Part shown: positions 329 to 54,831 of the stretch, piece after piece
How positions within the stretch are numbered: the stretch's first letter is position 1
Layout: every line of letters starts with the position of its first letter
IMG/VR virus record: IMGVR_UViG_3300032213_002832
Location: 103,516 to 167,515 of that record
Reading direction: 5' to 3' (one strand)
Source of the DNA: a virus
DNA length: 64,000 bases
Program-made: the position numbers and the translations under genes
The notes under the pieces: model-generated
Seen by the model: only the letters and a program-made list of their open reading frames with translations
Databases searched by the model: none
Told to the model about the DNA's origin: nothing

Positions 329-1360
329 CTATAATTTGTTTGTGAAATAATTGATTATATGTAAGTGATCCTCATAGAATTCTGACTCTTTAATAAATAA
401 GTCTGCTATTGGAATCCATATCGCTCTTTCAGCATCGTCATCACCTTTAACTTGTGGAAGTTGTCCACCGTCAGGTAGTTTTACGCAAAAAGCATTAGTA
501 ATAGTACGACCACGTAGCGATCTACTCGGATTATCAAATACACGCTGGTCAACTATGTATTTCATTAATGTATCTTTTGGTACTAAGATACGAGTCTCTT
601 CTTTGAGCTCACGAAATGCTGAGTCAATAATAGTTTCATTTTGGTTTACGAAGCCACCTGGAAGTGCTAGAAGCCCTTTACCAGGATTAAACTTCCTACG
701 AATAACTAGAACATGGGCGTTTTTAACTACTAGAACATCAGTAGTGACAAAGGTTACTGGATATGGTGCCATTGCCCACATGTCTTTATAATCTTTAATA
801 AACTTCCACTCTTCAACTAAGTTAGTATATGTTGTAGTCTTTTCCCAATTTGTTAAATAATCTGTTACTTCTTTAGCTAAATTATTGGTAAACTGAGGGT
901 TGTTTTGAAAGTATAAGTTACGAATCTCAGTGGCATGTGTTACATTTCTAGCGATAGAGAGTTCTCGTTTCCAACTCTCTGGAAGAGCATCTAGATACCA
1001 AGAGCTCTCATCTTTATTAGAACCTAATACGCATATGCTTGAAGTTTCCACATTATATATTTGATTCATTACTGAGTTATGTAAGTCAGTAAACCAAGCT
1101 GTATCATTATAGTAATAATCACGAACTTGTACAAAAATAAGTCGAGTATTTTCTAATTTAGAGAAACAAACTCTAACCATCTCTTCACGTTCTTGAGCAT
1201 TCCAGGGGTTTTTAATGTTTGGGGCAGCACGATGTGAGCCAAGAGCAATAATTACATTATTGGCTAATTCTAATCCGCGCTTGATTTGATTGATGTGTTC
1301 TTTGTGGGGTGGTTGGAGTCGGCCAATGAAAACCGCATAGTCATACTTATACTTATTCAT
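329..1360 (-). CDS. Bifunctional NMN adenylyltransferase / Nudix hydrolase
   Basis: A 343-residue protein. Residues 10-170 resemble the NadM-type nucleotidyltransferase fold, with FIGRLQPPHKEH (11-22) as the HxxH-like ATP-binding motif. Residues 200-340 form a Nudix domain with the box GGFVNQNETIIDSAFRELKEET at about 235-256. The last conserved glycine of the Nudix box (EExG) is arginine here (EETRI), a small deviation. The family joins NMN and ATP to give NAD+; the Nudix half typically acts on ADP-ribose-type substrates. It lies directly upstream of nadV on the same strand, 34 nt apart. A promoter-like element lies at 1406-1432. Confidence 0.88.
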   Translation of the reverse strand: MNKYKYDYAVFIGRLQPPHKEHINQIKRGLELANNVIIALGSHRAAPNIKNPWNAQEREEMVRVCFSKLENTRLIFVQVRDYYYNDTAWFTDLHNSVMNQIYNVETSSICVLGSNKDESSWYLDALPESWKRELSIARNVTHATEIRNLYFQNNPQFTNNLAKEVTDYLTNWEKTTTYTNLVEEWKFIKDYKDMWAMAPYPVTFVTTDVLVVKNAHVLVIRRKFNPGKGLLALPGGFVNQNETIIDSAFRELKEETRILVPKDTLMKYIVDQRVFDNPSRSLRGRTITNAFCVKLPDGGQLPQVKGDDDAERAIWIPIADLFIKESEFYEDHLHIINYFTNKL

Positions 1361-1995: not shown

Positions 1996-2020
1996 TGTGG
2001 GGAGTCATTGACTCCCCACA
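1996..2020 (-). terminator. Stem-loop after the 2044-2307 gene
   Basis: A perfect 11-bp stem (TGTGGGGAGTC / GACTCCCCACA) with a 3-nt loop lies between two - strand genes. The following - strand sequence, AATTTATTATG, is not a clean U-tract, so this may be a weak terminator or an mRNA end-protecting hairpin. Confidence 0.55.
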
Positions 2021-2043: not shown

Positions 2044-2307
2044 TTAGATAGATCCATTAACCTTACGGTTCTTAAGGGCTTTAAGAAGACGTGCTTTAGG
2101 CGTCTTTCCATAAGCAGCAAACTTTCCGTTACCTTGGAAAACTTGTTCTGTTTGTCCATTTAGCCATGTGTCTAGTGCTAATGACTTTTCTGAAAACACA
2201 CCTTTGCGAGGAGATACTGTATAGTATGGTCCTGCTTCTGTAACTTTTCTAGAGTTAACACTTTGTAATGCTGCTACAAAAAAACTGATTGTATAACCTT
2301 TTGACAT
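2044..2307 (-). CDS. Small basic protein of unknown function
   Basis: 87 residues, rich in Lys and Arg toward the C-terminus (KTPKARLLKALKNRKVNGSI). No domain recognised. It is set off by a hairpin downstream and a 74-nt gap upstream that carries TATAAATA on the - strand (2346-2353), a likely promoter. An AAAGGAA site precedes the start. Confidence 0.6.
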   Translation of the reverse strand: MSKGYTISFFVAALQSVNSRKVTEAGPYYTVSPRKGVFSEKSLALDTWLNGQTEQVFQGNGKFAAYGKTPKARLLKALKNRKVNGSI

Positions 2308-2381: not shown

Positions 2382-4673
2382 TTATATTTTATTTTCCAAT
2401 ATGCCTTTAACAATATTCTCCACACTATCATTCTTATATGTAGTGATGTTGTCAAACTTTTCTTCCATATTTGGTAATACTAATTTCGTCTCAAATTCAC
2501 CAATCACTCTAATTGCCGTTTCAGCATCTTTTATAGAGGGATGATTCTCTCTTGCTATGGCTCTTTCAGTACATATATCAGCCGGAACATCTAGAATTAC
2601 AGCGGATACATCAGTGAGTTTAAAGTTCTTAGCTAAATCAAGCCAACTCTTTCTTTGTAGTACATCGAAGTTACAACGATCTATAACAACATTCTTATTC
2701 TGCTTTATAGCTTCTACTGTAGCCTTCTTACAAGCATTACGTGATCCCAAATCATCTTGGTTCACACGCACATATCCATGTTTCTCAAGCTCTGTTGCCA
2801 CGGTAGATTTACCAGAACCAGGTAGGCCAACAAGTATGATCATCTTAGATTTACTTGTATTATTACTTTTATTGTTATTATTATAATAATACATTATGTC
2901 ATCACCAAACTTACCCCACTCTTTTGGTCCCATATCAAGTTCTGCTTGTAATAACTCTTTAGTCACAAGCTGATCTTCAGAGAGAATCTTCTTTACAGCC
3001 TCATCTACTCTGCCCTGCATAGTAGCATCAAAATTCTGCCAATGAACTTCCTCTATATCTGAAGGTTTTATCTTATAAAGAGTCCTATTAATAACGTCAC
3101 AATTCTCATCTAATAAATACATTACTTTGCCTTCTACAGCAAAATGTTCATATTCATACTTATGAGGTAAATTCTTAAACTTACGGTATATTAAGTTACT
3201 ATTTAAATCTTCAAGTTGATGTTGCTTACATTTAGCTACCACATCAATAGGTGCTGAAAAGCAATTAATGTCATCCTCTGCGAATATAACAGGTCGTATA
3301 GCACCATTATCGGTAATAACAAATAGTGGTTTTAAATCTATATCAAAATTATATTCAACTAAATGTGGCTCTTTTTTACCACACAATTCAGCAGATACAG
3401 CACTTACATGGTGGTATTCTAATAACTGTGTTATCTTTTGTACTGTCTCTTCATTATTTAACAATACTTCTCTAGTTAAAGATAAGAAATTACCCATAGG
3501 AGAGTCGCCTAAGAATGGTCTACCTTTAGATTTAGCTGTAACAAACACTGTATTCTCAGCATCAGTATACTTATAGAATAATACATTCATACCATTCCAC
3601 TTTTCAGCGAAGTATACATATTTATAATCTTTTATATCCATGTACTCTTTAGATCCATATGTTTTATATGGATATGCCAGTTTAGGAGTACCATGTACAA
3701 GCTGTTGCTTAACAACTATACCATTCACATGAGTAATTAGCAATGAACCCTGCATTAACCCTTTTTCACGACATATAATTCCACTCACATGATTGCTTTT
3801 ATTAAACGGATCTTCCATGGTAAATTTATCAGTGAATTTAATATTACATCCAAACAGTTTAGCAGCTATTGCTCGGTACTTATCTAGTTCACTAGTAGGT
3901 ACCGCACTTTGCTCTAAGCACTTAATTTCTTTAAAAGGTTGCCCATGCTTAGCTCTTAATACATCTACTGTACCAGTAGAGAAGAAGCAACCATTAATAA
4001 CTTTATCATCAGTTAAACCAGCGCTTGTGTCATACCACTTCCATAAAATACCGTCAACTGCTCCAGGTTCTTGGCCAGCAGTACAGTGAACATGGCCAGA
4101 CATGTAGGCCTTGATTCCAGCCGCACCTATAAGTTCTGCTGTAGATACACTCTGTGGATAATGTCCTATCAATACTGGAATAGGGTTTTTAAGTGATTTA
4201 GACTGATGAACCACATCTTTAGCGAAGTCCACTATATTCTTATTAACTTTTTCCATATCTTCTGTTTTTAAAGAGTGATCTGAATAGCAGCCAATAACAT
4301 ATGGGCCTAATTGCATTATTTCATTTTCACCAATTATATGTAACCTAGGTACATTTAAGCTAAGTTTTAGCTCTCCAACTCTCCATGATGCGTCGTGATT
4401 TCCACGACATACAACTATATGACCTAATATATTAGCTCTAAGCCAGTTTAATGAATTAAATACTGAACGCCCGTACATATCATGAGTAATGTCACCAGTA
4501 ATAAAAGTGATATCGTTTTCACTTATATTTTCTTTAGCAAAGTCTGCTATAGCTTCTAAGTAATTAACAAAAGTCCATGAACCAATAGCCCACCTACGCT
4601 CATGCATCTTTTTAATAGGCTGCATGTTCTCATCCATGGAGAGGTGGGTATCTGAAATATGCCAAATTTTCAT
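2382..4673 (-). CDS. Trifunctional RNA end-repair enzyme: metallophosphoesterase, RNA ligase, polynucleotide kinase
   Basis: 763 residues in three parts. Residues 1-250 are a calcineurin-like phosphoesterase: SDTH (7-10), GD (60-61), GNHD (91-94), GHYP and GHVH (193-196). Residues about 340-545 are an RNA ligase/nucleotidyltransferase: the motif I lysine in EKWNGMN (K358), AELCGKKEPHLVEY as the motif IIIa/IV region, and YKIKPSD as motif V. Residues 610-763 are a P-loop kinase (GLPGSGKST, 616-624) with a VIDRCNFD motif, like T4 polynucleotide kinase. The enzyme could heal and seal broken RNA such as tRNA cut by host nucleases. Bacterial Pnkp carries the same three activities in the order kinase-phosphatase-ligase, so the order here is rearranged. 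Another RNA ligase and a DNA ligase lie just upstream. Confidence 0.85.
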   Translation of the reverse strand: MKIWHISDTHLSMDENMQPIKKMHERRWAIGSWTFVNYLEAIADFAKENISENDITFITGDITHDMYGRSVFNSLNWLRANILGHIVVCRGNHDASWRVGELKLSLNVPRLHIIGENEIMQLGPYVIGCYSDHSLKTEDMEKVNKNIVDFAKDVVHQSKSLKNPIPVLIGHYPQSVSTAELIGAAGIKAYMSGHVHCTAGQEPGAVDGILWKWYDTSAGLTDDKVINGCFFSTGTVDVLRAKHGQPFKEIKCLEQSAVPTSELDKYRAIAAKLFGCNIKFTDKFTMEDPFNKSNHVSGIICREKGLMQGSLLITHVNGIVVKQQLVHGTPKLAYPYKTYGSKEYMDIKDYKYVYFAEKWNGMNVLFYKYTDAENTVFVTAKSKGRPFLGDSPMGNFLSLTREVLLNNEETVQKITQLLEYHHVSAVSAELCGKKEPHLVEYNFDIDLKPLFVITDNGAIRPVIFAEDDINCFSAPIDVVAKCKQHQLEDLNSNLIYRKFKNLPHKYEYEHFAVEGKVMYLLDENCDVINRTLYKIKPSDIEEVHWQNFDATMQGRVDEAVKKILSEDQLVTKELLQAELDMGPKEWGKFGDDIMYYYNNNNKSNNTSKSKMIILVGLPGSGKSTVATELEKHGYVRVNQDDLGSRNACKKATVEAIKQNKNVVIDRCNFDVLQRKSWLDLAKNFKLTDVSAVILDVPADICTERAIARENHPSIKDAETAIRVIGEFETKLVLPNMEEKFDNITTYKNDSVENIVKGILENKI

Positions 4674-4684
4674 ACTAATCCTTT

Positions 4685-4981
4685 TTATACGTCACTGTAT
4701 TCAAACTCTTTACTACCACTATGAGAAATGAGAGTGAGTTTTAAATGTTCGTATGGTAATATTTTCCATTCATAATCTAATAACTGAAGTTTATCATCTT
4801 TATAAAGATCCGTAAGTACTCTATGTATAGCAGAGGAATGCATGCTAGAATGAGATTTAAGTATCACATTTATAGAGTCTTGTGTAATCAGTTTATCTTG
4901 TTTAAGATGATTTAGCATAGCAGTCTTGCAATCCATCAGCTCAAATAATCTATTTAGAAACTCTACCTTCTTATTCATCAT
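4685..4981 (-). CDS. Small protein of unknown function
   Basis: About 98 residues beginning MMNKKVEFLNRLFELMDCKT; mostly predicted helical (DSINVILKSHSSMHSSAIHRVLTDLYKDD looks helix-turn-helix-like, unproven). A longer in-frame start exists at 4999, but GGAG lies 4-7 nt before the MM pair, and the 59-residue gene upstream ends inside this start (4971), suggesting coupled translation. It lies between the RNA repair fusion and the RNA ligase. Confidence 0.6.
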   Translation of the reverse strand: MMNKKVEFLNRLFELMDCKTAMLNHLKQDKLITQDSINVILKSHSSMHSSAIHRVLTDLYKDDKLQLLDYEWKILPYEHLKLTLISHSGSKEFEYSDV

Positions 4982-5150
4982 CAATCTCCGAGTAATCAAG
5001 ATTCCAGTAATACCAGCTAGAACAAAAAGCCTTAGCCCATCTGATAGCCTCGTCTTTTGTACCCTTGTATATAGGACCTATGCGATAACCGCTTGGAGAA
5101 AATAAGCAATACCTATTTTTACTAATTGGCTTCAGCTTTATTTTTATCAT
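4971..5150 (-). CDS. 59-residue protein of unknown function
   Basis: The translation begins MIKIKLKPISKNRYCLFSPS and ends LDYSEIDDE, with an aromatic stretch WAKAFCSSWYYW near the end. It fills the gap between the RNA ligase and the 4685-4981 gene and overlaps the start of that gene. GAGTTG before the ATG is a weak ribosome site. The arrangement supports a real gene; function unknown. Confidence 0.55.
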   Translation of the reverse strand: MIKIKLKPISKNRYCLFSPSGYRIGPIYKGTKDEAIRWAKAFCSSWYYWNLDYSEIDDE

Positions 5151-5175: not shown

Positions 5176-6291
5176 TTAGTGAAAATCAGTGTTATCTCCA
5201 AGTAGATATTCATCACTAATTAATTTAAGCACCTTACGTCCTATGTGGCACTTTTCTTCTTTGATAGGACGGATCACTACACCTTCTATTACCTTTTGGC
5301 TTGGTACCATCACTGAGTTACCCTTAGTGAGCTCTTTAGCTTTGGCTGTATCGAAAGGTCCTTTATATAGTACTGGGACAGTTTCGAATCCGAGTTTAGA
5401 GCACAGAGATTCTACATAGCTTTGATCTGTAAAGCCATTTCCAACAATCATTGTATCGAATATTACTAGCTTACGCTCACCTTCTTTACAACCGTATGTA
5501 TACCCTTTTTGGATACCAGAGCCGTATATCTCGCCATAAAAGACATGACCTTTAAGTCCTTCAGTCTTTTTCTTTAAATCATATTGAATAACAGCTGCTT
5601 CATATACGTTTCCAATACCCATTTTCTCATAATAATCTTTGTTAAAAGATGTTTTACTTTGAAGTTGTACTCTATTAGAGCCAAACGCAAATTCATACTT
5701 AGGTAATAAGCCAAATAGTTTCTTTACTTTCTTGAAAAATGTATCAGCTACTGTTGGGACCCAGCCGAATCGGAAGTTGGTTCCATGAACCTTTTCAGTA
5801 ATGAAGACCTCTTCACCTTCTTGAAATAGATTTGGGTTATGTTTAAAGTTATCAAGTCCACCATATTCCGCAAAGTATGGGTTCTTGTTTTTCTTTGGAG
5901 CCGGGCTTCCAGTCATTGATGGAGGTGCTTCTGGTGGCTCAAACTTAGTGATACCTAATTGCTTAGTACAGTCATACCCTTCTTTTTCAGGTACTTTGAA
6001 TACGCTACACTTGGCTAACATGCCTTGAGAAATACAGCCTCTTAGCTTAATTGTCTTTACACGAGATTTGCTAAGCTTAACTTTAGAATCAGGCGAGAAT
6101 AGGACATCTTCTACTTCTTTAGAGAGTATAGAGTCAATCGGAATATAGATTGCTAAATCGCCTGCTACAAAAGCGCCTTTTTGAATTACACATTGCCATC
6201 CAGCAATATGCGCCACCTCGAGGCGATCAGCATTTGGAACAGGACTTATACTACTTATCTTTACTACTTTAACTGAAAAATCTGAAGCCAT
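5176..6291 (-). CDS. RNA ligase with N-terminal OB-like domain (DraRnl/Rnl5 type)
   Basis: 371 residues. The N-terminal 100 residues (VKISSISPVPNADRLEVAHI, GWQCVIQKGAFVAGDLAIYIPIDS) match the OB-fold module of Deinococcus-type RNA ligases. The adenylation centre is EKVHGTNF with lysine about 167; later motifs include GHVFYGEIYG (motif IIIa) and EGVVIRP (motif IV), with a C-terminal KVLKLIS (motif V). It joins RNA 3'-OH and 5'-phosphate ends, probably at nicks. Its start overlaps the stop of the DNA ligase by one base (6291), so the two are one transcription unit. Confidence 0.87.
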   Translation of the reverse strand: MASDFSVKVVKISSISPVPNADRLEVAHIAGWQCVIQKGAFVAGDLAIYIPIDSILSKEVEDVLFSPDSKVKLSKSRVKTIKLRGCISQGMLAKCSVFKVPEKEGYDCTKQLGITKFEPPEAPPSMTGSPAPKKNKNPYFAEYGGLDNFKHNPNLFQEGEEVFITEKVHGTNFRFGWVPTVADTFFKKVKKLFGLLPKYEFAFGSNRVQLQSKTSFNKDYYEKMGIGNVYEAAVIQYDLKKKTEGLKGHVFYGEIYGSGIQKGYTYGCKEGERKLVIFDTMIVGNGFTDQSYVESLCSKLGFETVPVLYKGPFDTAKAKELTKGNSVMVPSQKVIEGVVIRPIKEEKCHIGRKVLKLISDEYLLGDNTDFH

Positions 6292-7535
6292 TATTTATCA
6301 TTCCTCCATCGAAGTATAACCGGAAATCTCATTACACCATCGGCACTTAAATCTTGGTATTTAATCTCTGCTATTCTACCCACCGCTAATGATGGCGTAT
6401 TCCATATATTAGATCTATCTTCATCTGTAAATCCAGAACCTACATCACATGCTAAACCATTCTCTTGAATAAGCTTTAATCCACCCATCATCCCAGCATA
6501 TTTGCCTTCACCTTCATATAGTCCAACAACTTTACAATCCATCGATTTCATTGTTTTGAACTTCATTAGGCGATTAGACTTCTTACCAAGGTAATATGGG
6601 ATATTAGGCAATGCCATAGCACCTTCTAAACCTTGTGCTAAGTATTGTCTTTCAAGCTCTAATATCTCATCTACACTTTTAACTAAGGCTTGAGTGACCT
6701 TTACTATATTAGTGAGATTAGGATTTTGCTCAAAGAATAGGTCGAGATTCTCCAGTCTCTCTTTAGTGACCATCTTAAAGCTGCTACTATTAAATTCATT
6801 AGTTGGAATCCATCCAAACACATGGTATTTGACATCGCCCACACTCTTCTTGCTTTTGCTTGACATTGCTGTTTGCTGCATGGCATTGAAGTCATCTGAC
6901 ATGATCTCGCCATCTAAGATGAAATAGGTATCTTCGCAAAGACTCTCTAGTGTTTCTTTAATAGATGGGAAGTTCTCAAACTCCGTACCATTGCGTGAAA
7001 ACAGTTGTACTTGGCCATAAGAACATATAGCAAGACACCTGTATCCATCAAGCTTAGGGCTAACATAAACACCTTCTTTGACCAACGCCGGAAGGTTCTT
7101 TGCTTCCTTACCATCCTTAGCTAACATCACATCAAAGTCAGGGATATTGAATCCAGCTTTATTAGCTTCAGTGAGTCCAAAGCCGGCACGCAAGTTCTTA
7201 CGCAATACACGCGCATACCATTTAGCCTCTAATGGATTAAGCAATTCAAATACCTTATCTACTTCACCTTTAGCCTCATTTCCAGTGATACTTCGTGTCT
7301 CTAATCTATTTAGTAATTTCATAAATATTGTATGAGTTGTCTTAGTAGCTTTAGTATCATCTGGAAAACCAGCTACATCATTGAACTTCTTAACATAATA
7401 CTTACGTTTGAAGTTGAGAGCAGCATCAATTAATTCTGCCAACTCAGTATTGTTCTGGTTGGCAGTTAAAATCTTCTGTTTCTCGGATGTCGATGAGGTT
7501 TTCTCGAGCAAATCTAATACGTCGAGCGCATTCAT
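6291..7535 (-). CDS. ATP-dependent DNA ligase
   Basis: 414 residues, near the usual size of small phage ligases. Motif I is SPKLDGYR (K161); other motifs are LFSRNGTEFENFP, FILDGEIM, GLEGAMALP and the motif V lysines in RLMKFK. A C-terminal OB domain follows (CKVVGLYEGEGKYAGMMGGL, AEIKYQDLSADGVMRFPVILRWR). It resembles the T7-like group. It seals nicks in phage DNA during replication and repair. Confidence 0.92.
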   Translation of the reverse strand: MNALDVLDLLEKTSSTSEKQKILTANQNNTELAELIDAALNFKRKYYVKKFNDVAGFPDDTKATKTTHTIFMKLLNRLETRSITGNEAKGEVDKVFELLNPLEAKWYARVLRKNLRAGFGLTEANKAGFNIPDFDVMLAKDGKEAKNLPALVKEGVYVSPKLDGYRCLAICSYGQVQLFSRNGTEFENFPSIKETLESLCEDTYFILDGEIMSDDFNAMQQTAMSSKSKKSVGDVKYHVFGWIPTNEFNSSSFKMVTKERLENLDLFFEQNPNLTNIVKVTQALVKSVDEILELERQYLAQGLEGAMALPNIPYYLGKKSNRLMKFKTMKSMDCKVVGLYEGEGKYAGMMGGLKLIQENGLACDVGSGFTDEDRSNIWNTPSLAVGRIAEIKYQDLSADGVMRFPVILRWRNDK

Positions 7536-41154: not shown

Positions 41155-41322
41155 ATGCGTAGGTTTTATGATGGCTATTTAGTATTAACATACTTTGAGA
41201 AAGTGAACGAATGCTCTATTACTCAGTATCAGACATTTGCCGGTCTGCCATTACAAAGTCTTTTTGAGTCAAAGTGTAGATTACAAATGGTATCGATACT
41301 AGTTAAGCTGGGTGTTGTATGA
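41155..41322 (+). CDS. Micro-gene family, class 1, member 2
   Basis: 55 residues. MRRFYDGYLVLTYFEKVNEC at the N-terminus and CRLQMVSILVKLGVV at the end. Overlaps member 3 at ATGA. Confidence 0.7.
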   Translation: MRRFYDGYLVLTYFEKVNECSITQYQTFAGLPLQSLFESKCRLQMVSILVKLGVV

Positions 41323-41516
41323 GTGAAGTTTATATCATTGGTAATGATATGGAGTTTTCTTATAATACAGAATGTAGGGAGTATGCGCTTTTTACCAATG
41401 GTTCATATATTTTAGGATCTGCTCCAATCGACCTAATGGTTCCAATCGACCAGGATATTGAGTTTTATTTTAAAGTGAACATGGTTATATTGTTAAATAG
41501 ACTTGAGGTTATATGA
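41319..41516 (+). CDS. Micro-gene family, class 1, member 3
   Basis: 65 residues. N-terminal IIGNDMEFSYNTECREYALF; C-terminal FKVNMVILLNRLEVI. The GAG GTT codons of LEV make a GAGG site for member 4, which overlaps at ATGA. Confidence 0.7.
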   Translation: MSEVYIIGNDMEFSYNTECREYALFTNGSYILGSAPIDLMVPIDQDIEFYFKVNMVILLNRLEVI

Positions 41517-41698
41517 AGTACATATATACATGTGGTGATGTAAGGCTAATATATGATAATCAGGCAAATTATCATGTGGATGGTAGGCATTGTATTATTT
41601 ACAATAGATATAAGGTACCCATGTCTATAGAGGAAGCGTTAGGAGCTGTACATAAGTTGGAAGTAGTACGGATTCTACTTAAACTAGGAGTACTATGA
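41513..41698 (+). CDS. Micro-gene family, class 1, member 4
   Basis: 61 residues. N-terminal YTCGDVRLIYDNQANYHVDG; C-terminal HKLEVVRILLKLGVL. GGAG in LGV precedes the next ATG by 4 nt; ATGA overlap. Confidence 0.7.
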   Translation: MKYIYTCGDVRLIYDNQANYHVDGRHCIIYNRYKVPMSIEEALGAVHKLEVVRILLKLGVL

Positions 41699-41910
41699 CT
41701 ACGTTTATGAGATGGGGAGATGGTGGCATGGTACTACATTATGATGTAGCAAATACTACTGGGCACGTATTTAAATCTGGAGAATGGAGTAGCATTTACT
41801 TCGTACCTCATCAGGGGTGGAGAGGTAGAGATGATAAATCATTAGAGGAATCGCGTCACAGGTTACAAATGAGGCTTGTGCTACTTAAACTCGGAGTACT
41901 TACAGTATGA
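41695..41910 (+). CDS. Micro-gene family, class 1, member 5
   Basis: 71 residues. N-terminal MRWGDGGMVLHYDVANTTGH; C-terminal SRHRLQMRLVLLKLGVLTV, here followed by two extra residues. ATGA overlap with member 6. Confidence 0.7.
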   Translation: MTTFMRWGDGGMVLHYDVANTTGHVFKSGEWSSIYFVPHQGWRGRDDKSLEESRHRLQMRLVLLKLGVLTV

Positions 41911-42083
41911 AGAAATACAAAGATGGGCGTTATTTTATACACTATGAAGGTGATAAAATTCATGTTTTTCACATCACTTATTCAACAGACCCTAAGAATT
42001 ACAAGGATTCGCCGGCTCAGAATCAGTCGCGCCTTAGGATGGAGATGGTGAGAATTCTGCTTACACTCGGAGTAGCTACATGA
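41907..42083 (+). CDS. Micro-gene family, class 1, member 6
   Basis: 58 residues. N-terminal MKKYKDGRYFIHYEGDKIHV; C-terminal SRLRMEMVRILLTLGVAT. The usual basic residue before LGV is Thr here. ATGA overlap with member 7. Confidence 0.7.
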   Translation: MKKYKDGRYFIHYEGDKIHVFHITYSTDPKNYKDSPAQNQSRLRMEMVRILLTLGVAT

Positions 42084-42283
42084 GCTATATACATATTGGT
42101 GGCAGTGGTGGAAGAGCATTTTCTTATGATATGAAAACTGGATCTTACTCTATGAGTCAACCTACTTCGCCCATATATACTATGGGCCGTTATGATGTAG
42201 TAGATGTAGTACCAGAACATGACGATGATTTTCATTTTAAAGTGGACATTGTTTTATTATTAGCTAAATTTGGAGTGGTATGA
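42080..42283 (+). CDS. Micro-gene family, class 1, member 7
   Basis: 67 residues. N-terminal MSYIHIGGSGGRAFSYDMKT; C-terminal FKVDIVLLLAKFGVV. Resembles member 3 in the end region (FKVxxVxLL). ATGA overlap with member 8. Confidence 0.7.
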   Translation: MSYIHIGGSGGRAFSYDMKTGSYSMSQPTSPIYTMGRYDVVDVVPEHDDDFHFKVDIVLLLAKFGVV

Positions 42284-42489
42284 GAATAATTAGAACATAT
42301 ACTGATGGGAACTTCGTACTACATCATGACAACTTAGATGATAGTTGTAATATTTATCAGGTTTGTAATACAGTTAGTTTTGGTAATATTTATATCCCTC
42401 CGCCGAAGGAAGGAGATAAAGATTCGCTTCTTAGACTAAAAGTGAGGCAAATGGCAATAAAGCTACTCCCCAAATTAGGTGTTATATGA
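42280..42489 (+). CDS. Micro-gene family, class 1, member 8
   Basis: 69 residues. N-terminal IRTYTDGNFVLHHDNLDDSC; C-terminal LRLKVRQMAIKLLPKLGVI. ATGA overlap with member 9. Confidence 0.7.
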   Translation: MRIIRTYTDGNFVLHHDNLDDSCNIYQVCNTVSFGNIYIPPPKEGDKDSLLRLKVRQMAIKLLPKLGVI

Positions 42490-42602
42490 AAGCAATCAAA
42501 ACAGAATCGTTAGAAGAAGCTTTTAAGAGTGTCACTTTCAATATCGTACATTTAAAAACATTTAGTATGATTCAATTACTTTCTAAACTAGGTGTGCGAT
42601 GA
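42486..42602 (+). CDS. Micro-gene family, member 9, shortened
   Basis: 38 residues: begins MKAIKTESLEEAFKSVTFNI and ends FSMIQLLSKLGVR. It lacks the N-terminal DGxxxLxY element, so it is the motif helix with a short lead. ATGA overlap. Confidence 0.62.
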   Translation: MKAIKTESLEEAFKSVTFNIVHLKTFSMIQLLSKLGVR

Positions 42603-42784
42603 TAAGGTTTGCGGATGGCGATATGAGAGTGGATTATTATGTAGATTCAGGTAATACGTTTTACCATATACAAATACCACAGCATATGTTTGATATAAAC
42701 TACACCGTCACCCCAAGCTTGTTTGATTCAAAACATAGGTTACAAATGCGAGTGATATTATTCAAGCTTGGAGTATGGGAGTAG
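42599..42784 (+). CDS. Micro-gene family, class 1, member 10
   Basis: 61 residues. N-terminal MIRFADGDMRVDYYVDSGNT; C-terminal SKHRLQMRVILFKLGVWE. Separated from member 11 by 3 nt. Confidence 0.7.
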   Translation: MIRFADGDMRVDYYVDSGNTFYHIQIPQHMFDINYTVTPSLFDSKHRLQMRVILFKLGVWE

Positions 42785-42787
42785 CAG

Positions 42788-42991
42788 ATGGATAAGCGAA
42801 GTGTAGTGTATATAGATGGCGATTACATGATGTCTTATAATCGTATGAATTACGCGTGGTGTGGATATGACGAGAAATACTCATATTATGATATCAAATA
42901 TAGACGTGGCTTTCGTACAGGTAAAGAAGATAATAGTGGTCTTTATAGGCTTCTGATGAGACGATTACTAATGAAGTTGGAAGTAGTATAA
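42788..42991 (+). CDS. Micro-gene family, class 1, member 11
   Basis: 67 residues. N-terminal VVYIDGDYMMSYNRMNYAWC; C-terminal LYRLLMRRLLMKLEVV. Stop and next start overlap as TAATG. Confidence 0.7.
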   Translation: MDKRSVVYIDGDYMMSYNRMNYAWCGYDEKYSYYDIKYRRGFRTGKEDNSGLYRLLMRRLLMKLEVV

Positions 42992-43185
42992 TGGTTGAAA
43001 TGTTTGTAACAATTAGTGATGGGAACTGGATACTACAGATGAATACCACTAGAGGTACTGGGCGTATACAATCTGCTTTTTACCCATTTGTAAACAAACC
43101 ACAATATTTACAAAATAGTCATGAAGTGGATTCATTCTATAGACTCTATATACGACTAATATTAATGAAGTTGGGAGTAGCATGA
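42991..43185 (+). CDS. Micro-gene family, class 1, member 12
   Basis: 64 residues. N-terminal VTISDGNWILQMNTTRGTGR; C-terminal FYRLYIRLILMKLGVA. ATGA overlap with member 13. Confidence 0.7.
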   Translation: MVEMFVTISDGNWILQMNTTRGTGRIQSAFYPFVNKPQYLQNSHEVDSFYRLYIRLILMKLGVA

Positions 43186-43295
43186 CGTACCTTGATCGTA
43201 TAGAGTTTTCTCATGATGAAATTCAGAAGGCCATTAACCTACTTAATATAATAAACAAATTAACGCAGCTACTTAAAAAGTTGGATGTTATATGA
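43182..43295 (+). CDS. Micro-gene family, member 13, shortened
   Basis: 37 residues: begins MTYLDRIEFSHDEIQKAINL and ends KLTQLLKKLDVI. No DG element. LDV replaces LGV, so the ribosome-site codons are broken (GGAT) while the protein motif is kept. ATGA overlap. Confidence 0.62.
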   Translation: MTYLDRIEFSHDEIQKAINLLNIINKLTQLLKKLDVI

Positions 43296-43462
43296 TATTA
43301 AAGCATAAACATGTTGGTAATTGGATAGTGCGTTACAGCGACACCTTCAGTACTTCTAACAGCGATATAAGTATACATCAGATTGATAGCAATCCAAGTT
43401 ATAAACATTCATTTAGGGGATTAAGACTAATCGGAGTCTTGATGAAGTTGGGTGTTATATGA
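43292..43462 (+). CDS. Micro-gene family, class 1, member 14
   Basis: 56 residues. N-terminal KHKHVGNWIVRYSDTFSTSN; C-terminal GLRLIGVLMKLGVI. ATGA overlap with member 15. Confidence 0.7.
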   Translation: MILKHKHVGNWIVRYSDTFSTSNSDISIHQIDSNPSYKHSFRGLRLIGVLMKLGVI

Positions 43463-43617
43463 AGATGGAGCATATTTGGTATCACACGCCAAGTGGCGTT
43501 AGTGCGAATTATAAGGGTGAGTGGAAGCATTTTGGTGCTAACATCTCGTGGAATCGTGACAATATGAAGGATATAGCTGAATTGTGGTTGTTGTTAAAAA
43601 GGTTGGAGGTGGTATGA
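43459..43617 (+). CDS. Micro-gene family, class 1, member 15
   Basis: 52 residues. N-terminal IWYHTPSGVSANYKGEWKHF; C-terminal IAELWLLLKRLEVV. GGAGG in the last codons lies 4 nt before the next ATG; ATGA overlap. Confidence 0.7.
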   Translation: MKMEHIWYHTPSGVSANYKGEWKHFGANISWNRDNMKDIAELWLLLKRLEVV

Positions 43618-43778
43618 AAACTATTGGTGGGTTTAGGCAAGATCGACATGGCATTATGATAATTGATATATATGATCAAGATATTATGCGCTTGGCTGCG
43701 ATCGGGGGTTTTACAGTTCGGCATAGAAGATATCAGGCACATATGTTGATACTACTTCAAAAGGTTGGAGTGATATGA
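43614..43778 (+). CDS. Micro-gene family, class 1, member 16
   Basis: 54 residues from MKTIGGFRQDRHGIMIIDIY; C-terminal YQAHMLILLQKVGVI. The in-frame start at 43584 is rejected because it lies inside member 15. ATGA overlap with member 17. Confidence 0.7.
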   Translation: MKTIGGFRQDRHGIMIIDIYDQDIMRLAAIGGFTVRHRRYQAHMLILLQKVGVI

Positions 43779-43933
43779 GTGGTAATATGTTGGCATTTGG
43801 TAATAGCTATATTGCGTATACAGGTGATTTTAGAGTCTATAGTTATCAAAATGGAGATGTTTTTACTTACAACTTCTTATTAATAGTGATGTTGCTAGAT
43901 AAGTTAGGGATGAGTTTGGATAAGTGTCGATAA
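43775..43933 (+). CDS. Micro-gene family, class 1, member 17 (last of first block)
   Basis: 52 residues. N-terminal MLAFGNSYIAYTGDFRVYSY; C-terminal FLLIVMLLDKLGMSLDKCR, where the motif is followed by seven residues, foreshadowing class 2. A 75-nt gap with a TATAAT box follows. Confidence 0.66.
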   Translation: MSGNMLAFGNSYIAYTGDFRVYSYQNGDVFTYNFLLIVMLLDKLGMSLDKCR

Positions 43934-43973
43934 ATATTGGTTTTTAGTTTTTCCGACGACCAGAGGCTACGAG

Positions 43974-43979
43974 TATAAT
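43974..43979 (+). promoter_or_regulatory. Promoter-like box before the second micro-gene block
   Basis: TATAAT in GAGTATAATGATT, 30 nt before the first class 2 gene in the only sizeable gap (43934-44008) of the + strand array. Confidence 0.5.
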
Positions 43980-44008
43980 GATTTTATATAAATAAATATA
44001 AGGTTGAG

Positions 44009-44146
44009 ATGAATATTGGTTGTATTAGAAATATAGTGTTATTACTTATAAAGCTCAATGTGCTTCGGGATGTATCACCGGATACAGCAAATGCTTTAAT
44101 AATCGATTACATTAAGATTAAATACAATCAGTATAGTAAAGGGTAG
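44009..44146 (+). CDS. Micro-gene family, class 2, member 1
   Basis: 45 residues. The motif is near the N-terminus: CIRNIVLLLIKLNVLRDVSP, followed by a second helix (ANALIIDYIKIKYNQYSKG). Class 2 members carry the motif early or in the middle with a variable tail. Confidence 0.66.
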   Translation: MNIGCIRNIVLLLIKLNVLRDVSPDTANALIIDYIKIKYNQYSKG

Positions 44147-44154
44147 AAAAAGAT

Positions 44155-44289
44155 ATGATGGATTATAAAGGGGGATGGTATCAACACCGAGAACTTTCGA
44201 ATGTCATTTACATCTTATGTAAACTTGGTGCTATAGATCAGAATATTCTTACGCTACTTACTGGTAGAAAACTTGAATATAAGAAGTAA
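44155..44289 (+). CDS. Micro-gene family, class 2, member 2
   Basis: 44 residues: ELSNVIYILCKLGAIDQNIL then LLTGRKLEYKK. LGA replaces LGV. Two Met codons at the start; either could be used. Confidence 0.64.
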   Translation: MMDYKGGWYQHRELSNVIYILCKLGAIDQNILTLLTGRKLEYKK

Positions 44290-44300
44290 ATTGGAGATAT

Positions 44301-44432
44301 ATGCGTAAATATTCATTAGCTCGTGTCAGGTATACGCTAAATACCAAGCACAAGATGCTAAAACTCCTATCTAAGTTAGGTGTTATTCATCCGCTTGTAT
44401 ACGCTAAAGCATATAATAAGGTAAGTTTATAA
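44301..44432 (+). CDS. Micro-gene family, class 2, member 3
   Basis: 43 residues: MRKYSLARVRYTLNTKHKML KLLSKLGVIH region then PLVYAKAYNKVSL. TTGGAG stands 6 nt before the ATG. Confidence 0.66.
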   Translation: MRKYSLARVRYTLNTKHKMLKLLSKLGVIHPLVYAKAYNKVSL

Positions 44433-44591
44433 ATGAGATACTCAGCAGCACATAGCGGCGCCCTCATTAATATCGAAGTATTAATTATACTCCTGTATAA
44501 GCTCGATATATTAGATGAGATACAGTATGGCAAAGCTGTACTCCACCTATATGGAAGGGGATTAACTTATTACAATGAATCTTACCTATAA
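44433..44591 (+). CDS. Micro-gene family, class 2, member 4
   Basis: 52 residues: ALINIEVLIILLYKLDILDE then IQYGKAVLHLYGRGLTYYNE. The start abuts member 3's stop. Its end overlaps member 5 by 17 nt. Confidence 0.66.
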   Translation: MRYSAAHSGALINIEVLIILLYKLDILDEIQYGKAVLHLYGRGLTYYNESYL

Positions 44592-44712
44592 GCAAAGATT
44601 ACAACTCATGCGAGTTGTAAGGCTCCTTAGTCGTTTGGGAGTCGTTAGATCTGGCCTATATCCTAATATTGATTTTATAAAGATCAACCTAGTGATGGAA
44701 TCAAATGACTAA
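44575..44712 (+). CDS. Micro-gene family, class 2, member 5
   Basis: 45 residues: KQRLQLMRVVRLLSRLGVVR then a tail ending LVMESND. The RLxLMRxxxLL lead resembles class 1. AGGGG is the ribosome site within member 4. ATG overlap with member 6 (8 nt). Confidence 0.66.
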   Translation: MNLTYKQRLQLMRVVRLLSRLGVVRSGLYPNIDFIKINLVMESND

Positions 44713-44872
44713 GAAAACTATACAACAACAAATAGATTCTTATCATAAGATACAAGATACCTATTTTAAACAAGTACTTTATCGCGAGCGATTAAACAAG
44801 ATTATTAGTTTACTGATACGTATGGGTGCTCTTGATAATGTCCCATCGAAAGTGTTGTGGCAATTAAGATGA
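44705..44872 (+). CDS. Micro-gene family, class 2, member 6
   Basis: 55 residues, longer helical lead (MTKKTIQQQIDSYHKIQDTY) then RLNKIISLLIRMGALDNVPS and VLWQLR. RMGALD is a variant of KLGVID. Confidence 0.64.
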   Translation: MTKKTIQQQIDSYHKIQDTYFKQVLYRERLNKIISLLIRMGALDNVPSKVLWQLR

Positions 44873-44889
44873 GGGGAGGTAAAATATAA

Positions 44890-45033
44890 GTGGGTAATTA
44901 TTTTGGTGACGACTGTATGCGTATGCTACATATGCTTCATGTGTTAGAGGTTATTGATAGTAATCAGCAAGTCATCGCAAGACGTAGAGCACTTTATGAG
45001 ACAGATACTTTGTATAAAGCATGGACTACATAA
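44890..45033 (+). CDS. Micro-gene family, class 2, member 7 (GTG start)
   Basis: 47 residues: GNYFGDDCMRMLHMLHVLEV then IDSNQQVIARRRALYETDTL. GGGGAGG stands 10 nt before the GTG; an internal ATG at 44917 is the alternative start. Confidence 0.6.
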   Translation: MGNYFGDDCMRMLHMLHVLEVIDSNQQVIARRRALYETDTLYKAWTT

Positions 45034-45044
45034 GGTAATTTTAA

Positions 45045-45152
45045 ATGGCGCGATCACCAATAGAAGATATTAAAAGAGCAATGTGTTATTATGATGAGCT
45101 TTATTATTTGAGAAAGATAAAGCTACTTATGGTTAAGCTAGGGGTAATATGA
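45045..45152 (+). CDS. Micro-gene family, member 8 of second block (class 1-like end)
   Basis: 35 residues: MARSPIEDIKRAMCYYDELY then LRKIKLLMVKLGVI and stop. The shortest member; the motif is C-terminal. ATGA overlap with the next gene. Confidence 0.62.
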   Translation: MARSPIEDIKRAMCYYDELYYLRKIKLLMVKLGVI

Positions 45153-45277
45153 AAGGTGGGTTAGTAAAAATCATTTATATATTACGTAGACTCGATGTTA
45201 TTTGCGCATCTACTGAGTTTAATGCTTGGCAACATATTAAATACTATACTAATTTTGTGGAAACCAATAATACATGA
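45149..45277 (+). CDS. Micro-gene family, class 2, member 9
   Basis: 42 residues: MKGGLVKIIYILRRLDVICA then STEFNAWQHIKYYTNFVETN. ATGA overlaps on both sides. Confidence 0.65.
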   Translation: MKGGLVKIIYILRRLDVICASTEFNAWQHIKYYTNFVETNNT

Positions 45278-45516
45278 ATAGTGCTCCAATCTACACAAAT
45301 GGCCATTTTAATCAAATCAATGATCTCCTCTACAAGTTAGAGAGACTAGGTGTTATCGATTACAGTTTATATCTAAGTAGCAGCACTAGATTATGGATGA
45401 AGCACGCTGCCACCTATCCTAATAATAGCTCTACCTATACGAGCATCTCTTCCACTTCCTATACAGGTATCTACACTATTGCTACAACTGATACGACATT
45501 TTTAGGTAACAAATGA
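45274..45516 (+). CDS. Micro-gene family, class 2, member 10 (longest)
   Basis: 80 residues: FNQINDLLYKLERLGVIDYS then a Ser/Thr/Tyr-rich tail of about 50 residues (SSTYTSISSTSYTGIYTIAT). The unusual tail sets it apart. Overlaps the next ATG by 4 nt. Confidence 0.68.
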   Translation: MNSAPIYTNGHFNQINDLLYKLERLGVIDYSLYLSSSTRLWMKHAATYPNNSSTYTSISSTSYTGIYTIATTDTTFLGNK

Positions 45517-45662
45517 AATACAATATTACGATAGAGAACCTTATAGTATATGATATCAGTGATATTTTAGTACTTCTTAATAGGTTGGAAGTTATCAATG
45601 ACCATATCTATAATGTAGCAAAAAGCAATACTATATATTTCGGACATGTGGAGGTATCATGA
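45513..45662 (+). CDS. Micro-gene family, class 2, member 11
   Basis: 49 residues: VYDISDILVLLNRLEVINDH then IYNVAKSNTIYFGHVEVS. GGAGG in its last codons precedes the next start; ATGA overlap. Confidence 0.66.
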   Translation: MKYNITIENLIVYDISDILVLLNRLEVINDHIYNVAKSNTIYFGHVEVS

Positions 45663-45799
45663 CAATTCACGATCACTGGCGTAGACAGTGTATGATTGGG
45701 TTGCTGCGCAAATTAAGTGTACACGATAAGTTAATGTCACGTGCTGTCACGTCTAGTCGTCCCGTTAAGAACCGCGTAAATGACAAACAACCTAGATAG
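45659..45799 (+). CDS. Micro-gene family, class 2, member 12
   Basis: 46 residues: HDHWRRQCMIGLLRKLSVHD then a basic tail (SSRPVKNRVNDKQPR). LSV replaces LGV. Overlaps member 13 by 20 nt. Confidence 0.63.
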   Translation: MTIHDHWRRQCMIGLLRKLSVHDKLMSRAVTSSRPVKNRVNDKQPR

Positions 45800-45923
45800 C
45801 ATGGAAGACATGATTAGTTTATTATGTAAACTAGGAGTCATAGATGATAAGGCATTTGAACGCATCATGCCTTGGGGATTGTATGGTATGTATACACAAG
45901 CTATATGGGGCGGTAATAAGTAA
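45780..45923 (+). CDS. Micro-gene family, class 2, member 13
   Basis: 47 residues: MTNNLDSMEDMISLLCKLGV then IDDKAFERIMPWGLYGMYTQ. A near-consensus member (LLCKLGVID). TAATG overlap with the next. Confidence 0.67.
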   Translation: MTNNLDSMEDMISLLCKLGVIDDKAFERIMPWGLYGMYTQAIWGGNK

Positions 45924-46066
45924 TGGGCTTAACTAATGTATCACCAGCGATAGCAAAAAATATAAGAGATATTGTTATTCTATTATATAGATTAGATGTT
46001 TATGATTATACAGTATCACTTACCGCACAAATCAAACTATATCATATTGGGAGATGGACAGAATGA
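45923..46066 (+). CDS. Micro-gene family, class 2, member 14
   Basis: 47 residues: AIAKNIRDIVILLYRLDVYD then YTVSLTAQIKLYHIGRWTE. GGGAG in its end serves the last + strand member; ATGA overlap. Confidence 0.66.
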   Translation: MGLTNVSPAIAKNIRDIVILLYRLDVYDYTVSLTAQIKLYHIGRWTE

Positions 46067-46230
46067 CTTATGGTATGATACTTTTACTTAATAAGCTGGA
46101 TATTATAGATGGGAATAATTATAACAATATTATATTCGAAGCGGTGTCGTCGGCGCCTATACAGCAATACTTAACTGCGCAACAATTAAAGATATGGACA
46201 AAAAGTCTAAAGATAATACCTAAAAAGTAA
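46063..46230 (+). CDS. Micro-gene family, class 2, member 15 (last on + strand)
   Basis: 55 residues: MTYGMILLLNKLDIIDGNNY then a helical tail (QYLTAQQLKIWTKSLKIIPK). The motif begins almost at the start. It converges with the first - strand member 2 nt away. Confidence 0.66.
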   Translation: MTYGMILLLNKLDIIDGNNYNNIIFEAVSSAPIQQYLTAQQLKIWTKSLKIIPKK

Positions 46231-46232
46231 TT

Positions 46233-46367
46233 TTACTTTTCATCTAGTACAATTTTCAATATAGTTATAAAAGTATCATAAGCGCTCTTCTGATGTAAGA
46301 CGCCTAGCCTACGCAATAGAGTAACCATAGAGGCTACACCACTTAGTCTTTGTCGATTATTCAGCAT
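46233..46367 (-). CDS. Micro-gene family, - strand member 1
   Basis: 44 residues: LSGVASMVTLLRRLGVLHQK then AYDTFITILKIVLDEK. Pairs closely with the next gene (LSGVxSxVxLLxxLxV). Start overlaps the neighbour's stop as TAATG. Confidence 0.65.
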   Translation of the reverse strand: MLNNRQRLSGVASMVTLLRRLGVLHQKSAYDTFITILKIVLDEK

Positions 46368-46516
46368 TATTTCTCTTTTTTATATGATACACCCAATGCC
46401 ACACTGATTATTTCCACAAGTGCTGAATTATGTGTTAGCTTATCTACCACATTTAGTTTATATAATAGATCAACTAATGAAGTAACACCTGATAAATCTC
46501 TATACCCACCAGACAT
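46367..46516 (-). CDS. Micro-gene family, - strand member 2
   Basis: 49 residues: LSGVTSLVDLLYKLNVVDKL then THNSALVEIISVALGVSYKK. Recent duplicate of the preceding - strand member. GGAG stands before the start. Confidence 0.65.
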   Translation of the reverse strand: MSGGYRDLSGVTSLVDLLYKLNVVDKLTHNSALVEIISVALGVSYKKEK

Positions 46517-46518
46517 TA

Positions 46519-46722
46519 TTACTCCGGATATTTAAAAATACGATTAACTAATTCATGAACTACATACTCAACATTAGTAGTGGAACCCTCTACTACATTC
46601 ATTTTTTCCAGTAAATATATCATTTGCCTTAATAGCTTTTGACGTTGGCCTTGTAATGAGTTATATCTATTTCTTCGGAACAGTTCCATATGTTCCATAA
46701 ACTGTCTGGTGGCACTTTTCAT
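46519..46722 (-). CDS. Micro-gene family, - strand member 3
   Basis: 67 residues. A basic lead (HMELFRRNRYNSLQGQRQKL) then LLRQMIYLLEKMNVVEGSTT and a helical tail VVHELVNRIFKYPE. Overlaps the next gene by 4 nt. Confidence 0.65.
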   Translation of the reverse strand: MKSATRQFMEHMELFRRNRYNSLQGQRQKLLRQMIYLLEKMNVVEGSTTNVEYVVHELVNRIFKYPE

Positions 46723-46925
46723 TTATTACTCATTCTTTGAAATAAGCTAAGTTTCCATCTCTTGACGCCTTCTAGAACATCGCTCCTATATAGGTGTATA
46801 TCCTTATTTTCGAATACGTCTAGTTTCTTAAGTATTCTACAAATATAGAGAACATCATTTGCTGTTCTTTTATTAGGGTCAGATGGTGGCTCATGATTAG
46901 TCAGTATATGAGATACTCCCCACAT
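46719..46925 (-). CDS. Micro-gene family, - strand member 4
   Basis: 68 residues. DVLYICRILKKLDVFENKDI then HLYRSDVLEGVKRWKLSLFQ. First gene of the - strand block; the lead contains SDPNKRTAN, unlike others. Confidence 0.62.
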   Translation of the reverse strand: MWGVSHILTNHEPPSDPNKRTANDVLYICRILKKLDVFENKDIHLYRSDVLEGVKRWKLSLFQRMSNK

Positions 46926-53768: not shown

Positions 53769-53795
53769 TAATTCAGAACTAAGACTCTAGATGCG

Positions 53796-53829
53796 CCTCC
53801 GTGGTATAATGGCTACGGAGGTTTTTATT
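53796..53829 (+). terminator. Rho-independent terminator after the sheath gene
   Basis: CCTCCGT/ACGGAGG stem with a 12-nt loop that itself contains TATAAT, followed by TTTTTATTATT. It overlaps the apparent start of the HNH-kinase gene. Confidence 0.82.
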
Positions 53830-54831
53830 ATTAAAAAATGTATATGCTGTGATAATATCTTAAAATCTACGAAACCAGATGCTCGTATATGTAAGGTGTG
53901 TTCGCGTAAAACTAAAGAACCCGAGTTTAGGGTGTGTGGATTCTGTGACAAAAAGTTCACTGATAATTCACGTTCTAAAAATAAAAAATACTGCTCTATT
54001 AGATGTAATACCGATGCTGGCCACGCTAGACATAAAGACAACATCCTCAATGGTTCAATAGAGAAGCGTAAAGATAAGCGAGATCGTAAAGTAGAAAGAA
54101 AATATAGATATAATACTGATATAAAATTTAAGTTATCAATTGTGTTGAGAACTAGACTTAACGCTGCTATTAAGAATGGGCAAAAAGCCGGTTCCGCTAT
54201 TAAAGATCTAGGCTGTTCAGTAGATTTACTAAAATCATATCTAGAATCTAAGTTCCTACCCAATATGACTTGGGATAACTGGGGTAAAGATGGCTGGCAT
54301 ATAGATCATATAATCCCAATATCTAGTTTCGATTTAACGAATAGAGATGAATTGTTAAAAGCTTGTCACTATACTAACTTACAACCTATGTGGGCATTGG
54401 ATAATTTCATGAAATCAGATAAAATAACAATCAATAATACTATCTATATATTAGCTGGACCAAACGGGTGCGGTAAGACTACACTAGCACGAAAACTTGA
54501 TCATAAATTTAATATCATAGATTACGACTTATACACCTTTAATAAGTGTATAGAGTTAGCATTAAGCAATAATAACAAACCCCACCTCATAGTGACTCCT
54601 ATACAAGCAAAACGTATGAAGAAGTTATTAGAAAATCAAGGTGCTATAGTTAATATTATATATCTTCAAGAAACGCGTGAAACTATAGTAGAAAGAATAA
54701 TCAGTAGAGAAGGTAAGATAACAGATACTATTGATAGGCGTATTAAACGATATGAGACATTGAAAAAGAAAGATCTTTTTGTATTCTCTGGAACTCAACT
54801 TGAGGTTGAGGATTGGTTAAAGTCTATATAA
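53809..54831 (+). CDS. HNH endonuclease fused to a P-loop kinase-like domain
   Basis: About 340 residues. N-terminal Cys-rich zinc segment (KCICCDNIL, CKVC, CGFCDKK, CSIRC), then an HNH domain (GWHIDHIIPISSFDLTNRDE, LLKACHYTNLQPMWALDN) and a C-terminal domain with P-loop AGPNGCGKTTLARKL and a DYDLYTF segment as in small nucleotide or polynucleotide kinases. HNH enzymes of this type are homing endonucleases inserted between phage genes. Both candidate starts (53791, 53809) lie inside the sheath terminator, so the true start is uncertain. A terminator follows at 54843. Confidence 0.78.
   Translation: MATEVFIIKKCICCDNILKSTKPDARICKVCSRKTKEPEFRVCGFCDKKFTDNSRSKNKKYCSIRCNTDAGHARHKDNILNGSIEKRKDKRDRKVERKYRYNTDIKFKLSIVLRTRLNAAIKNGQKAGSAIKDLGCSVDLLKSYLESKFLPNMTWDNWGKDGWHIDHIIPISSFDLTNRDELLKACHYTNLQPMWALDNFMKSDKITINNTIYILAGPNGCGKTTLARKLDHKFNIIDYDLYTFNKCIELALSNNNKPHLIVTPIQAKRMKKLLENQGAIVNIIYLQETRETIVERIISREGKITDTIDRRIKRYETLKKKDLFVFSGTQLEVEDWLKSI

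Follow-up and report, generated by a model that had tools for sequence, protein, structure and literature searches.

A phage protein combining metallophosphoesterase, putative ligase and polynucleotide kinase domains in one chain as a candidate RNA heal-and-seal enzyme

The gene analyzed here, from a large contractile-tailed phage, encodes a single-chain protein that probably heals and seals RNA. It would have arisen independently of bacterial Pnkp and likely acts on tRNA or other RNA cut by the host. Judged from the sequence, this reading was given a probability of about 0.68. The gene lies in the window, which is the whole stretch of 64,000 nucleotides analyzed (positions 103,516 to 167,515 of IMG/VR record IMGVR_UViG_3300032213_002832). 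The virus record has 167,515 bases and contains tail sheath and ribonucleotide reductase genes, and it is that of a large contractile-tailed phage. The open reading frame is intact, begins with ATG and is preceded by AAGGA about 6 nt 5' of the start codon. A metallophosphoesterase (MPE) stands at the N-terminus of the protein, the ligase domain in the middle and the polynucleotide kinase at the C-terminus. The parts are as follows.

2382..4673, minus strand: MPE-ligase-kinase fusion protein of 763 aa (open reading frame, 764-aa full-length relative, AAGGA before ATG)
3999..4673, minus strand: calcineurin-like MPE domain, residues 1-225 (PF00149, conserved metal ligands)
3033..3914, minus strand: RNA-ligase-like, putative covalent nucleotidyltransferase domain with the preceding module, about residues 254-547 (motifs I, III, IV and V)
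3585..3605, minus strand: motif I, EKWNGMN, with K358 as the predicted AMP-accepting lysine (EKYNGVN in the relative)
2382..2864, minus strand: polynucleotide 5'-kinase domain, residues 604-763 (AAA_33, PDB matches, Foldseek)

The fusion protein is rare, with two members known. Whole-protein searches of the viral and genome contigs found no close relative, but scanning the genome contigs for a degenerate DNA version of the kinase motif [VI]IDRCNFD revealed one true relative. It is a protein of 764 aa (L113:6331-8625, minus strand) on contig SKFZ01000017.1 of a MAG labelled Bacilli. Ribonucleotide reductase, ThyX-like and ClpP-like genes and the same small marker genes as in the window, all judged by eye, indicate that this contig belongs to a phage of the window's kind. 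The two proteins were 47% identical overall, and the identity extended across all parts (MPE 47%, pre-ligase 51%, ligase core 45%, helical part 43%, kinase 46%). Because this relative is full-length with the same architecture, the three parts form one real gene, and a fused or misassembled reading frame or a frame accident was ruled out. The proposal of the earlier note that one chain carries three healing and sealing domains was thus supported, at the level of predicted domains, by domain matches, conserved motifs and the full-length relative.

Neither 28 related phage records nor 391 other genomes from the MAG's phylum contained a relative of the fusion, and the alignment of the two sequences, used as a query, gave no additional one. 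Among 50,697 phage genomes, single-domain kinase or MPE matches were obtained and nothing further. Three other pattern scans were discarded: EKWNG gave 29 matches and VNQDDLG gave 2, all by chance, and a broader motif I pattern gave an unrelated structural protein. Since just two members are known, every statement on conservation rests on a single pair.

The phosphoesterase domain was assigned by Metallophos (PF00149) over residues 1-197, scoring above the cut-off in both the fusion (E = 1.5e-12) and the relative (E = 1.5e-16). The calcineurin-like metal-ligand set (DxH, GD, GNHD, H, GHxH) is complete, and D8, H10, D61, N92, H93, H171, H194 and H196 are kept in the relative. HAD_PNKP was not found in the window phage, so that the MPE may be its sole 3'-end healer; this absence is provisional, given a possibly incomplete record. 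The relative's phage also has a HAD_PNKP gene, and its MPE may therefore serve cyclic phosphates or have another job.

The kinase domain matched AAA_33 (PF13671) from residue 611 at an E value of 4e-16, above the cut-off. G616 to T624 (P-loop GxxGxGKST), the catalytic D640, and R645, R704 and R708, including the Arg lid, are kept in the relative. The nearest PDB kinases were 9d8a and 9drz (E = 8e-33 and 1e-31), which come from Rhizopus azygosporus and Lichtheimia corymbifera and were solved with GDP; the Foldseek comparison with 9drz gave a TMt of 0.81. Mammalian PNKP, a DNA repair kinase, was next (2e-13), and the Clostridium Pnkp kinase (2e-4) and T4 Pnk (0.0016-0.0076) were far behind. The description of the kinase as T4 Pnk-like did not hold against this ranking. 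That the phage kinase may use GTP is a guess by analogy with the GDP-bound fungal kinases.

The middle domain is assigned as a ligase of putative fold with fair confidence. Its motifs in the fusion are EKWNGMN (357), AELCG (428), VEG (513) and YKIKP (533). Both proteins keep E-K-x-N-G-x-N (motif I), E-L-C-G (III), K-P-L-F-V (IIIa-like), E-G (IV) and Y-K-I-K-P (V). In both, a lysine-containing KxxG (K358 in WNG) is followed in order by motifs III, IV and V (AELCG, VEG, YKIK). The conserved motif set with ligase spacing appeared in 0 of 200,000 shuffles of the conserved columns under a strict pattern and in 6 of 200,000 under a loose one, each pattern having been drawn up with the established ligase motifs in mind. 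The KWNG sequence had been regarded as a deviant motif I, but it falls within the general RNA ligase consensus KxxG (PMC3400036). The catalytic lysine is retained in the relative, with EKYNGVN there and EKWNGMN here.

Similarity searches placed this domain closest to RNA ligases, at weak levels. Neither Pfam nor the PDB sequences gave a match for residues 254-608 alone, and the best NCBIfam hit (0.12), to an unrelated reductase, was unconvincing; the fusion protein did not match the TIGR02306 equivalog (Rnl5, DRB0094). Segment 349-441 of the relative matched PF09414 (RNA_ligase) at 0.0048, below the gathering score, with motif I in register. An HMM was also built from nine Rnl5 ligases and T4 Rnl2 and run against a background of 122 open reading frames. 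The relative ranked first (0.0015, against 0.12 for the best unrelated frame) and was aligned at motif I, and the window protein itself scored 0.87 but in the same register. In hhalign profile comparison, Rnl5 was the best of ten families (0.008), again at motif I. AlphaFold with the two sequences gave a middle-domain pLDDT of about 20-40, in the full protein and in the ligase segment alone. When the middle domain was aligned globally with Rnl5 and Rnl2, the motifs did not line up, and this alignment was discarded.

Bacterial Pnkp (TIGR04075) likewise has a kinase, a calcineurin-like phosphatase and a ligase in one chain for RNA repair. Its order is kinase-MPE-ligase, and that of the fusion, MPE-ligase-kinase, is a circular permutation of it. 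The fusion might accordingly be a rearranged bacterial Pnkp whose kinase simply moved from the N- to the C-terminus, with the MPE-ligase order kept and a Deinococcus Pnkp kinase 31% identical over 156 aa. This origin is highly improbable, and membership in the Pnkp family by simple permutation was rejected. TIGR04075 covers just the kinase stretch (residues 610-711 to positions 9-123 of 851, 28 bits against a cut-off of 750), and no Pnkp-ligase family is among the Pfam matches of the fusion or the relative. The MPE reads GDITHD and lacks the GDxVDRG of bacterial Pnkp, which is GDLVDRG in Deinococcus. As ranked above, the fungal kinases lie much closer than the Clostridium Pnkp kinase. The Pnkp-type ligase has an insertion controlled by Hen1 (PMC4411300), and Hen1 (TIGR04074) had no match in the 167.5-kb record, provisionally, as the record may be incomplete. 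The difference in domain order from bacterial Pnkp stated in the earlier note was confirmed by the Pfam domain positions and the kinase-only TIGR04075 match. Its suggestion of independent assembly also stands as the better reading, because neither the ligase nor the phosphoesterase is Pnkp-type and no Hen1 was found encoded.

Fungal Trl1 also has a ligase with a KxxG motif, a kinase and a phosphoesterase in one chain, and the fusion kinase is nearest to fungal ones. In Trl1, however, the cyclic phosphodiesterase is of the 2H type and a 2'-phosphate stays behind (PMC3400036), whereas the fusion has a two-metal MPE, placed first. No 2H phosphodiesterase family was among the fusion's Pfam matches, and no KptA was found in the phage record, with the same provisional status. 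In phage T4, too, Pnkp with Rnl1 and Rnl2 heals and seals tRNA cut by the host, but this system consists of separate polypeptides, has a HAD phosphatase where the fusion has an MPE, and its kinase is distantly similar. The Pnkp1-Rnl-Hen1 complex (PMC4411300) shows the same teamwork of kinase, phosphatase and ligase on ribotoxin-cut RNA; unlike the one-chain fusion, it comprises three polypeptides with a T4 Pnkp-like phosphatase and a Hen1 subunit. The best reading is that the fusion would work like Pnkp, T4 Pnkp/Rnl1 or Trl1 yet is a member of none. Somewhat short of an even chance, it could represent a separate class, assembled in phages independently of Pnkp and Trl1, with a two-metal MPE, a divergent, Hen1-independent KxNG ligase and a kinase of ancestry shared with fungal kinases, perhaps using GTP.

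The surroundings of the fusion gene contain further repair and NAD+-salvage genes, listed here together with the markers of an exchange site.

6291..7535, minus strand: ATP-dependent DNA ligase, overlapping the start of the Rnl5 gene (PF01068; phrog_114, E = 4e-96)
5176..6291, minus strand: separate RNA ligase of the DRB0094/Rnl5 family, upstream of the fusion (TIGR02306, E = 8.9e-51, above the cut-off; phrog_968)
4685..4999, minus strand: small conserved gene directly upstream, marker of the exchange site (L031:9016-9312, L032:13067-13363 and L113:9906-10196, assigned by position and sequence similarity)
2044..2307, minus strand: small conserved gene directly downstream, the other marker (L031:12017-12280, L113:5579-5920)
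1996..2020, minus strand: hairpin with an 11-pair stem and weak T tail, candidate end of the transcription unit; the count of such sites in the region is not above shuffle expectation
329..1360, minus strand: NMN adenylyltransferase (NMNAT)-Nudix protein (PF00293, PF01467, phrog_395)
G000 102409-103869: NAMPT-like open reading frame across the window edge, after the NMNAT-Nudix gene

Between the same markers, the sister phage L031 (9309-11956) has an AAA ATPase, a different small MPE and a HAD_PNKP phosphatase. Its DNA ligase is 74% identical, and no Rnl5 gene follows it. The locus of the relative contains an AAA gene, the fusion, and a HAD_PNKP 3'-phosphatase gene that overlaps the fusion gene. 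Because the window, L031 and the relative differ between the same markers, repair genes are exchanged at this marker-flanked site. The AAA ATPase, of unknown role, lies beside the repair genes at L113:8830-9849 and L031:9612-10598 and was not seen between the window markers. On the minus strand of the window, positions 1-1360 and on to G000 102409, the NAMPT-like and NMNAT-Nudix genes make up a two-gene NAD+ salvage set beside the RNA repair genes. Ruegeria phage RpAliso has the same activities in the same NAD+-salvage neighborhood: its HAD_PNKP-like, RNA ligase, kinase, NMNAT-Nudix and NAMPT genes also lie together. The RpAliso genes are unfused, and its ligase belongs to the phrog_562 group and has no blastp similarity to the fusion ligase.

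From the domains and their surroundings we infer the following course of repair. Once a host ribonuclease has cut, the N-terminal two-metal MPE would remove the resulting 2',3'-cyclic or 3' phosphate, and the C-terminal kinase would phosphorylate the 5'-OH. The middle domain would then take AMP onto Lys358, transfer it to the 5'-phosphate and join the strands. With a ligase nearer to Rnl2 and Rnl5 and a kinase nearest to the fungal GDP-bound kinases, the enzyme may have been assembled independently of bacterial Pnkp. Its likely substrate would be tRNA, or other RNA, cut by anti-phage ribonucleases of the host. According to a review of large phages, RNA ligases together with kinases and phosphatases counter the cutting of tRNA by the host (PMC7824862). 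Counter-defence repair of RNA cut by the host is likely, and the role against a tRNA-cutting defence proposed for the fusion fits its gene surroundings.

DNA is a real rival substrate because an ATP-dependent DNA ligase is encoded in the same gene cluster. The protein would then repair ends of DNA or RNA-DNA hybrids, the MPE trimming or dephosphorylating the 3' end, the kinase acting on the 5' end and the ligase sealing breaks from phage replication or restriction. A weak match of the MPE to SbcD (TIGR00619, E = 0.023) and the resemblance of the kinase to mammalian PNKP point the same way. We consider this alternative unlikely: motif I, E-K-x-N-G-x-N, resembles the E-K-x-H-G-x-N of Rnl2 and Rnl5, the weak Pfam match is RNA_ligase and not DNA_ligase, and the closest kinases are the fungal GDP-bound ones. 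The cluster, moreover, already has a separate DNA ligase.

RNA repair must also be weighed against a role outside repair, in which the middle domain transfers a nucleotide without sealing, for instance in RNA 5'-end adenylylation or capping, while small cyclic-nucleotide signals are the target of the MPE. The middle domain of the window protein is very divergent and has no direct database match, and a phosphoesterase by which a phage escapes bacterial immunity has been reported (PMC12287305). A kinase, a phosphatase and a ligase with motifs I to V in one chain nevertheless better fit end healing and sealing, and such a role is decidedly improbable. Repair of RNA is further supported by the Rnl5-type RNA ligase and NAD+-salvage genes adjoining the fusion and by HAD_PNKP beside the relative.

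The fusion suggests that RNA-repair activities were fused more than once, in another order and from other domain families, under pressure from tRNA-cutting defences. With all predicted activities in one protein, it is a compact candidate repair enzyme that would not need Hen1, and its cluster is an example of phage genes that combine RNA repair with the restoration of NAD+.

Several other features of the record were observed. The whole phage record contains a single tRNA gene (Met, CAT; L119:11317-11392). More than 20 tiny open reading frames (45-71 aa) stand in tandem at window positions 41155-46230 (plus strand) and 46367-46925 (minus strand), many with overlapping stop and start codons. This array had no match in Rfam. 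Most of these frames end in a shared signature like VLLKLGVI, and no frame of at least 100 aa occurs for 7 kb. At 53791-54831 (plus strand), a fusion of an Endonuclease VII/HNH-like N-terminal part and a P-loop kinase-like C-terminal part adjoins the tail sheath gene.
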